From positions 19,875 to 43,892 of the IMG/VR virus record IMGVR_UViG_3300030108_001605: 24,018 bases of DNA; one strand, given 5' to 3'. The stretch is from a virus. The notes beneath the pieces were generated by a model. It saw nothing but the letters and a program-made list of their open reading frames with translations. It was not told where the DNA came from and searched no databases. Position 1 is the stretch's first letter; each line of letters starts with the position of its first letter. Position numbers and translations under genes: made by a program. Shown piece after piece: positions 17,610-23,368 of this stretch.

Positions 17610-17890
17610 AAAAGAATCTAACAAAAGAATATTTAGAAACAGCAATAAAATTAATAACAGGACCAAGAGCTAAAGACTATGGTGATAAGATACAAAACCA
17701 TGCAAACATTGCTAAACTTTGGTCTGCTTATTTAGATAAAGAAATCACAGCACACGATGCTGCTATCTTATTAGGATTGTTAAAAGTAGCGAGAGCTAAG
17801 TTTGGTAATCCTCATCCTGATACATACATTGATGCTGCAGCTTACATGGCCATCGCCGGCGAATGTAAATTTGAAGGCGACGATAAATGA
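17606..17890 (+). CDS. DUF6378-like phage protein, 94 aa
   Basis: A 94-residue all-helical protein with GPRAKDYGDKIQNHANIAKLW, DAAILLGLLKVARAKFG and DTYIDAAAYMAIAGE (written as separate segments). This matches the DUF6378 pattern from memory. The arrangement of acidic and His residues on helices is reminiscent of MazG-like NTP pyrophosphohydrolases, so a nucleotide-pool role is possible but unproven. It overlaps both neighbours by four bases and is directly upstream of the DNA polymerase, consistent with a replication-support function. Confidence 0.75.
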   Translation: MKKNLTKEYLETAIKLITGPRAKDYGDKIQNHANIAKLWSAYLDKEITAHDAAILLGLLKVARAKFGNPHPDTYIDAAAYMAIAGECKFEGDDK

Positions 17891-22355: not shown

Positions 22356-22380
22356 TATTTTTGCAACACTAGATTAATTG

Positions 22381-22410
22381 TGCTCTCCGGGATAGAACTC
22401 CCAGAGAGCA
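22381..22410 (+). other. Strong RNA hairpin in the gap before the RHH gene
   Basis: TGCTCTCCGGGA (22381-22392) pairs with TCCCAGAGAGCA (22399-22410): twelve positions with one mismatch, and a six-base loop TAGAAC. It is the most GC-rich part of the 175-base gap between the 70-aa gene and the RHH gene. No U-run follows directly. It may act with the terminator-like element at 22419-22441, or as an RNA processing or stability element. Confidence 0.6.
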
Positions 22411-22418
22411 AACAAAAG

Positions 22419-22441
22419 GTGTGAGAAGAGATCTTCTTTTT
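22419..22441 (+). terminator. Possible weak intrinsic terminator
   Basis: AGAAG (22424-22428) pairs with CTTCT (22433-22437) around a four-base loop, and T bases run through 22441. GTGT upstream and ACAC downstream could extend pairing. The stem is short, so termination would be weak. Its place at the end of one transcript and ahead of a candidate promoter is what makes it credible. Confidence 0.35.
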
Positions 22442-22459
22442 ACACTAAAAAAATAACCC

Positions 22460-22488
22460 TTGCAAGCATTGATTTATTATTGTAAATT
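22460..22488 (+). promoter_or_regulatory. Candidate promoter for the RHH regulator gene
   Basis: TTGCAA (22460-22465) and TAAATT (22483-22488) lie 17 bases apart, weak sigma70-like elements preceded by TGTA. Directly overlapping the -10 is ATTCCCATAT (22486-22495), the same decamer found at the centre of the divergent promoter at 12030-12039. AAAGGAA ahead of the RHH ATG at 22531 is a good ribosome binding site. Confidence 0.4.
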
Positions 22489-22530
22489 CCCATATTCCTA
22501 TGAAAATAATTATTAAGAAAGGAACGATAA

Positions 22531-22710
22531 ATGGCAAACACTAAGCTATATAAGTCGTTATCTGTTGGTATAGAAGACTATAAAAAACTTACTATACTTG
22601 CACAAAAGACTAATAGAACTAGATCAAAGATGATTGGTAGACTACTTAGATTTTTTGAAGATAACAAAGGAACGAAAGCGAATGGTAAGGCTAATGGAAA
22701 AGGCAAATAA
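22531..22710 (+). CDS. Ribbon-helix-helix (CopG/Arc-like) DNA-binding protein, 59 aa
   Basis: A 59-residue protein whose first 43 residues fit the RHH fold: a short beta strand (KLYKSLSVGI), helix A (DYKKLTILAQKT) and, after the NRTRS turn, helix B (KMIGRLLRFFEDN). RHH proteins dimerise and insert paired strands into the major groove of palindromic operators. The last 15 residues form a Lys/Gly/Asn basic tail. It follows a non-coding gap with a possible terminator and promoter, so it may be transcribed separately. A phage repressor or early/late switch protein is a reasonable inference; a plasmid-type antitoxin is less likely as no toxin gene is adjacent. Confidence 0.72.
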   Translation: MANTKLYKSLSVGIEDYKKLTILAQKTNRTRSKMIGRLLRFFEDNKGTKANGKANGKGK

Positions 22711-22876: not shown

Positions 22877-23048
22877 TACAATAGATTTGATAAAATATAA
22901 GTGGAAAGTAATTAAAGATTATCCTCTTAGTTGGATAGAATCTATTGGATCTCGTATGAGTGTCTATGCGTGGAATAAAAGATGGAAAAACAGAAAGGAC
23001 GGTACCGGTTATGCAAAAGAATCCTATAGCAAAAGATTTGATGACTAA
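22863..23048 (+). CDS. Small Trp/Tyr-rich protein, 61 aa
   Basis: A 61-residue protein with IDLIKYKWKVIKDYPLSWI and SVYAWNKRWKNRKDGTGYA. It is basic and aromatic-rich, with no signal peptide or membrane helix. The start overlaps the zinc-finger gene by 14 bases. The dense Trp/Arg/Lys pattern suggests nucleic acid or protein contact. Function unknown. Confidence 0.65.
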   Translation: MTIPDTIDLIKYKWKVIKDYPLSWIESIGSRMSVYAWNKRWKNRKDGTGYAKESYSKRFDD

Positions 23049-23148
23049 TAAGTATCGTCAACGGATTAAAAAAAATAAAAAGAAGGAGCGAGACAAAAGA
23101 AGATTAAAAAGTATGAAACTTTTGTATAAATTAGAATTTATGAGGTGA
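23011..23148 (+). CDS. Small highly basic protein, 45 aa
   Basis: A 45-residue protein starting MQKNPIAKDLMTNKYRQR, followed by a Lys/Arg run and ending KLLYKLEFMR. The MQKNPIAKDL...YRQR opening is one I recall from widespread short marine phage proteins, function unknown. ATG 23011 is used because AAAGGAC lies upstream; an earlier ATG at 22966 (in frame) would give a longer overlap with the previous gene. The candidate structured RNA begins at its stop codon. Confidence 0.65.
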   Translation: MQKNPIAKDLMTNKYRQRIKKNKKKERDKRRLKSMKLLYKLEFMR

Positions 23149-23249
23149 GGTAAGTAAGGGGACCTATGTAATGCTTCGCGCTAGCCTCTAACCCCAAGTC
23201 TTACCAGTAGTACCCACTGCGTTCTACGGCCGAGATGGTGTGTACTACT
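23149..23249 (+). ncRNA. Candidate structured RNA (two adjacent stem-loops)
   Basis: The 103-base stretch between the basic protein and the next membrane-protein gene has no ORF and is richer in G+C than its flanks. GGTAAG (23149-23154) pairs with CTTACC (23200-23205), enclosing GGGG (23158-23161) with CCCC (23192-23195). The next base starts a second arm, AGTAGTAC (23206-23213) with GTACTACT (23242-23249), eight perfect pairs, enclosing weaker inner pairing near 23215-23240. The second arm ends three bases before the ATG at 23252, so it may be a translated-gene leader (riboswitch or RNA-binding-protein site) or a separate RNA. I could not match it to tRNA or to known ribozyme cores. Confidence 0.55.
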
Positions 23250-23251
23250 AT

Positions 23252-23368
23252 ATGAAAAATAAAATTATGAAAAAATATATAGACAAATTTCATTTATGGC
23301 ATCTGATGTACAGAACTGAAATAGTGTGTTTTATTTTAGGTTTTGTAGTAGGTGCTATAATACTGTGA
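23252..23368 (+). CDS. Small single-TM protein, 38 aa
   Basis: A 38-residue protein: basic/aromatic N-terminus (KNKIMKKYIDKFHLWHLMYR) and a C-terminal membrane helix at about 25-38 (VCFILGFVVGAIIL). No clear AGGAG-type ribosome binding site precedes ATG 23252; the upstream bases are in the second RNA arm, so initiation may be controlled by structure. ATG 23267 is an alternative. Its stop overlaps the next GTG (GTGA). Confidence 0.6.
   Translation: MKNKIMKKYIDKFHLWHLMYRTEIVCFILGFVVGAIIL

Follow-up and report, generated by a model that had tools for sequence, protein, structure and literature searches.

A pelagiphage structured RNA related to the Flavobacterium-1 family, with a self-complementary loop as candidate dimer contact

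The window analyzed here comprises 24,018 nucleotides, the final 24 kb of a 43.9-kb viral record, and contains at positions 23146–23255 of the (+) strand a small non-coding element. The record is related to phage 023Pt_psg01 and to Pelagibacter phage HTVC027P and is therefore regarded as that of a pelagiphage. Based on comparative rather than energetic proof, the element can be considered a genuine structured RNA: the compared sequences support a two-domain fold with compensatory changes, membership of a family, self-complementary loops that differ between relatives, a single copy and variable insertion sites. Our preferred reading, held with somewhat more than even confidence, is that this RNA of about 100 nt, a member of a superfamily but without its hairpin P3, would form a homodimer through the loops of hairpin P4 and act in trans from operon transcripts.

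Fold and compensatory changes

The original prediction concerned the 103 bases at 23149–23251, described as free of open reading frames (ORFs), rich in G+C and folded into two adjacent arms. This description agrees with our analysis. The stretch directly adjoins the TGA of the upstream ORF 22960–23148, and the only listed ORF of at least 40 amino acids touching it is a GTG-started frame (23240–23368) that overlaps its last 12 bases. The G+C content is 50.5% compared with 33.3% for the window, and is equally high in only 0.8% of 103-base stretches. Both arms lie at the predicted coordinates, whereas the gap between the second arm and the ATG at 23252 is two bases instead of three. The parts of the element are as follows (L014 and L005 are homologous loci; type II and model R1 are defined in the next section):

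23146–23148, (+) strand: TGA, the 5′ boundary, doubling as the stop codon of the upstream ORF
23149–23205, (+) strand: domain 1, with P1 (GGTAAG 23149–23154 / CTTACC 23200–23205) around P2 and the core loop; P1 pairing kept in L014 and L005 via two double changes
23158–23195, (+) strand: P2 (GGGG 23158–23161 / CCCC 23192–23195) with inner pairs TA 23165–23166 / TA 23189–23190; one double change
23164–23191, (+) strand: conserved core loop CTATGTAATGCTTCGCGCTAGCCTCTAA, common to type II RNAs; matched by R1, which was built without the window
23206–23249, (+) strand: P4 hairpin (AGTAGTAC 23206–23213 / GTACTACT 23242–23249; CAC 23215–23217 / GTG 23238–23240; TCT 23223–23225 / AGA 23233–23235), from folding, hand alignment and double changes in type II P4
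23227–23232, (+) strand: self-complementary apical loop CGGCCG (CAGCTG in L014 and L005), the proposed kissing-dimer contact, from the palindrome count and hand alignment
23250–23255, (+) strand: ATATGA, the 3′ boundary; its ATG at 23252 opens the downstream ORF MKNKIMKKYIDK...

The folding energy of the stretch is ordinary (z −0.93; 37 of 200 shuffles fold equally well), and single-sequence folding gave no significance for either the window or its relatives. Therefore, comparison with relatives had to decide. A homologue search with the protein encoded at 22531–22710 yielded 80 loci. Two of them, L014 and L005, have the element within an unchanged gene order, with 82–84% identity over 97 bases, while in L004 the flanking genes are joined without it and the locus is about 118 bases shorter, leaving a clean empty site. 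Searches with neighbouring proteins returned the same two RNA-bearing contigs only, and otherwise empty ones.

Since RNAalifold (mixed alignment) and MAFFT (window, L014 and L005) misaligned P1 and P4, these three sequences were aligned by hand. In this alignment, P1 changes from GGTAAG/CTTACC to GGTAGA/TCTACC in the homologues, two double changes that keep the pairing, and the inner P2 pairs change from TA/TA to CA/TG, one T-A pair of the window being replaced by C-G. In addition, a C-U mismatch in the window corresponds to a U-G pair in both homologues. P3, which in relatives lies between P2 and the 3′ strand of P1, is absent in all three sequences and is shortened away in the type II locus L427 as well. 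An extra GNRA-type hairpin adjoins P2 in L014 and L005 (GAGAC-GCAA-GTCTC, GGGAC-GAAA-GTCTC).

These compensatory changes, two pairs in P1 and one in P2, support the structured RNA that had been predicted. Pairing broken without compensation and an alignment pointing to a degraded gene had been named as counter-evidence; the only flaw in the pairing of the two homologues is a single bulged base in P4, and the alignment shows no sign of a degraded gene. A chance fold or a gene remnant is thus a highly improbable explanation, in line with the unexceptional folding energy but refuted by the compensatory changes and by the large conserved family described below.

A superfamily of marine phage RNAs

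The element had been proposed as new and had resisted assignment to known motifs. In agreement, neither Rfam nor ARAGORN returned a tRNA, ribozyme or riboswitch; positions 23120–23280 gave no match to RF02976 (Flavobacterium-1 RNA) even at E up to 10, and the whole record gave none to this family either. The novelty holds in that the element has no Rfam match of its own, but is qualified by its being a divergent, P3-less relative of RF02976.

This relation emerged from pattern scans of the core. An exact 21-base pattern had no match and a loose 14-base pattern was drowned in chance matches, while the pattern GCTTCGCGCTN{0,2}AGCCTCT revealed, amid chance matches, this core in a P2-like context at eight loci of marine viruses, L213 among them. 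The window core ATGTAATGCTTCGCGCTAGCCTCT leads to about 50 more marine viral sequences; the scan for cores of this kind retrieved 74 stretches, of which about 55 are true elements, and the scan for the RF02976 core retrieved at least 120 viral contigs. Accordingly, we refer to the 89 distinct RF02976-like sequences as type I and to the 54 distinct sequences with the window-type core, the window counted, as type II. Against RF02976, with its gathering cut-off of 58.9 bits, type II sequences score 30–47 bits (L213 matches over its full length with 35.1 bits, L223 with 47.3 bits) and type I sequences 88–115 bits, above the cut-off in 28 of 28 records.

A covariance model (R1) was built from 26 type II sequences with the window left out. 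R1 finds the type I locus L244 over its whole length (E 2.3e-14), and types I and II are therefore considered homologous. In the window it finds the core loop only (23164–23191; 19.4 bits, E 8.6e-4 in 24 kb), which is its sole match in the 43.9-kb record. The type II alignment itself has 95.3% of its cells paired, and 15 of 33 pairs show double changes, among them all nine P4 helix pairs, three of the four P3 pairs and both apical pairs. None of 500 shuffles was as good, and slid registers came nowhere near.

The Flavobacterium-1 RNA, listed in Rfam with the type 'sRNA', and the window element share P1 around a bulged P2 with two inner pairs, a 26-nt loop with a small inner stem, a P4 hairpin with an apical tetraloop, TGA and ATATGA at the ends, a single copy and an origin in marine phages. 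They differ in the loop sequence (TGTAATGCTTCGCGCTAGCCTC in the window versus NATCTTGCCNNTGGCATTTCCC in RF02976) and in the inner P2 pair (TA/TA in the window versus CA/TG), and the window element neither contains P3 nor reaches the RF02976 cut-off. Together with the R1 match, the CGGCCG loop of P4, the TGA at 23146–23148 and the ATATGA at 23250–23255 place the window in the wider superfamily. On sequence grounds, the element is best described as a minimal, P3-less and divergent member of the superfamily that contains the Flavobacterium-1 RNA.

The superfamily seems to be essentially confined to marine phages of the SAR11 type. Among 257 Gb of bacterial and archaeal genomes, the window-type core pattern had no match and the RF02976 core pattern had three, one of them real. 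The scaffold holding this sole true copy (L241, KB911123.1) belongs to the single-cell genome Flavobacterium sp. SCGC AAA160-P02 and is collinear with phage HTVC027P (56% covered, 75% identity). The isolate HTVC027P carries the RNA as well (17,747–17,873, minus strand; RF02976, 90.2 bits, above the cut-off), while none was found in eight other marine phage records tested. Because the lone genome copy is HTVC027P-like DNA and HTVC027P holds the RNA, the family can be assigned to phages; Flavobacterium-1 appears to be misnamed, its name probably reflecting a virus in, or mixed with, the sorted cell.

Self-complementary P4 loops

Since all members were retrieved through the P2 core and not through P4, the P4 loop constitutes an independent observation. 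A palindrome of at least 4 nt occurs in 36 of 37 distinct P4 apical regions and one of at least 8 nt in 25 of 37, versus about 3.5% of shuffled regions; as related sequences enter this count separately, it is a guide rather than a probability, which tempers its weight in favour of a dimer. The palindromes vary widely (CGGCCG, CAGCTG, GTGCAC, GTCGAC, GATGCATC, TGATCA, TGGCCA), even within near-identical contexts, such as GTACGTGCACGGAA versus GTACGTCGACGGAA, TTCCCTGATCAGGA versus TTCCCTGGCCAGGA, and TTCTACGGCCGAGA of the window versus TTCTACAGCTGAGA of L014. The letters that differ occupy or adjoin the two-fold axis, and there a loop has no means of pairing two of its own bases. Such changes are thus unpairable within one molecule and are most naturally explained by base pairing between separate molecules. 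A protein dimer recognizing the DNA would have difficulty accepting such a range of sequences. Taken together, we consider it quite probable that two copies form a kissing homodimer via their P4 loops. A GACG tetraloop, which is also known in retroviral dimer hairpins, takes the place of the palindrome in a few members of type I.

Genomic setting and possible mode of action

A single RNA copy was found per record in 28 of 28 records searched with RF02976, and the R1 search of 27 records gave one match each in 21. The insertion sites vary, several have empty relatives, and different subtypes may occupy one site. Of 50 anchored type II elements, 44 have TGA on their left, and ATATGA directly follows P4 in 109 of 143 members. 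According to crude ORF calls, the element most commonly (39 of 87) follows a same-strand gene and faces a convergent one downstream.

Combined with the dimer proposal, this setting leads to the following possible mechanism. The RNA would be made inside longer operon transcripts, often in the 3′ untranslated region, and would be cut or trimmed from them, probably before acting. The P4 loops of two copies would then kiss to give the homodimer as the working form. The dimer may act in trans, and the conserved P2 loop would be the surface through which it functions, probably by contacting a partner from the host or the phage. Trans action is proposed because the RNA is single-copy while its site, strand context and neighbouring gene vary, and we regard action in trans from a processed transcript as an evenly balanced proposition.

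Alternatively, the RNA may be a cis-acting 5′ leader: P4 is placed 2 to about 9 nt ahead of an ATG and would regulate how the downstream gene is translated, in the manner of a riboswitch or thermosensor. The position of ATATGA right after P4 is consistent with this role, and the ATG opens a gene in the window element and a dozen other members. In about a dozen members the gene is a sizeable one, for example a helicase, exonuclease-like, peptide-deformylase-like or LAGLIDADG gene. Moreover, several type II members have AGGAGGG in the 3′ arm of P4, reminiscent of a sequestered ribosome-binding site. However, the downstream genes share no relationship, a gene is lacking at this position in most elements, the commonest setting places a convergent gene downstream, and P4 of the window and of type I contains no ribosome-binding site. 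A leader is therefore unlikely, and as a general role it was set aside since the downstream genes are unrelated or missing. In L389, L370 and other type II loci, the AGGAGGG arm lies a few bases before the ATG.

The boundaries and site polymorphism could also point to a mobile or selfish insertion element, similar to IS200/IS605 or HEARO, with the RNA as guide scaffold or the hairpins as transposition ends. Presence or absence at the same sites, differing subtypes at one site, the TGA...ATATGA ends and LAGLIDADG genes immediately downstream in some loci fit this idea. Opposed to it are the single copy per contig and the covariation, which indicates an RNA fold under selection. Furthermore, the 27 carrier records contain no Y1 transposase (PF01797) and only sub-threshold TnpB/Cas12f-type matches (PF07282), IscB not having been searched, and HEARO was not among the matches for L213 at E up to 10. 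We give this explanation little credence. LAGLIDADG homing endonuclease genes start at the ATG of ATATGA in L219, L382 (Pfam-confirmed) and L381 (by eye). Downstream of the empty site in L004, and separated from it by one small gene, is a gene of the recombination endonuclease VII type (PF02945; L004:1657–2199).

Often preceded by a stop codon and followed by a terminator-like inverted repeat, the element could also be a structure that stabilizes or processes the operon transcript, such as an RNase site or 3′-end protector. This role is improbable, as it would need neither invariant letters in a 26-nt loop nor self-complementary loops, and the RNA occurs once per genome.

Several observations weigh against a trans-acting dimer of this superfamily. 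The dimer is a prediction from sequence. Some loci have a real gene opening at the 3′-end ATG, which fits a cis role. The link between the window and type II consists of the P2 loop (19.4 bits), the style of the P4 loop and the boundaries, with an R1 match short of full length; and R1 misses L014 and L005, whose core loop is one base longer. Finally, relatives without the RNA exist, namely L004 at this site as well as 023Pt_psg01 and HTVC023P without a match, so the RNA is not essential.

Regarding other intergenic features, the window contains at 22356–22530 a non-coding region with a strong inverted repeat (GCTCTCCGGGA...TCCCAGAGAGC) and a GTGAGAAGA motif; its right part plus the next gene is 73.5% conserved in 023Pt_psg01, and intergenic regions of the GTGAGAAGA style are a frequent RNA site in other phages. 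In L282, L303, L359 and their kin, tandem hairpin modules (ATTATTTGCTGGACCA...TGGTCCTGCTAATAAT, TTTAGAATGATT...AATCATTCTAAA, CAAGC repeats) occur within one intergenic region, and their order relative to the RNA changes.

The phages of SAR11 rank among Earth's most abundant viruses, and to our knowledge very little is known about their RNAs. The present analysis reassigns an orphan Rfam family from a bacterium to phages, considerably widens its sequence range and supplies a testable physical prediction, a dimer formed via interchangeable palindromic loops, for which a cultured phage-host pair exists (HTVC027P on HTCC1062). It is conceivable, though we rate it below an even chance, that these phages carry widespread single-copy, homodimeric, trans-acting RNAs that combine a conserved functional loop with a freely drifting self-complementary dimer loop. 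If true, these RNAs would constitute a sort of phage machine that is not known among RNAs this small, with Rfam containing only half of the family, named after a bacterium.

Three known systems offer comparisons. The put RNA of phage HK022 consists of two adjacent hairpins in a phage transcript and thereby resembles the paired hairpins of the window RNA, which differs in showing no homology, having no tie to early promoters, and possessing a large conserved P2 loop and a dimer loop. The retroviral dimerization initiation site is a kissing loop in the leader of a genomic RNA, whereas the present element is a phage RNA of 100–135 nt without homology to it. The packaging RNA (pRNA) of phi29 is a small phage RNA that forms multimers through loop-loop pairing. 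The Rfam pRNA family gave no match in the window and was not listed for the element at E up to 10; the likeness lies in the comparable size and in the loop-loop multimer proposed here from sequence. In phi29, which represents another host and phage type, two different loops pair with each other, while in the present RNAs each loop is complementary to itself.
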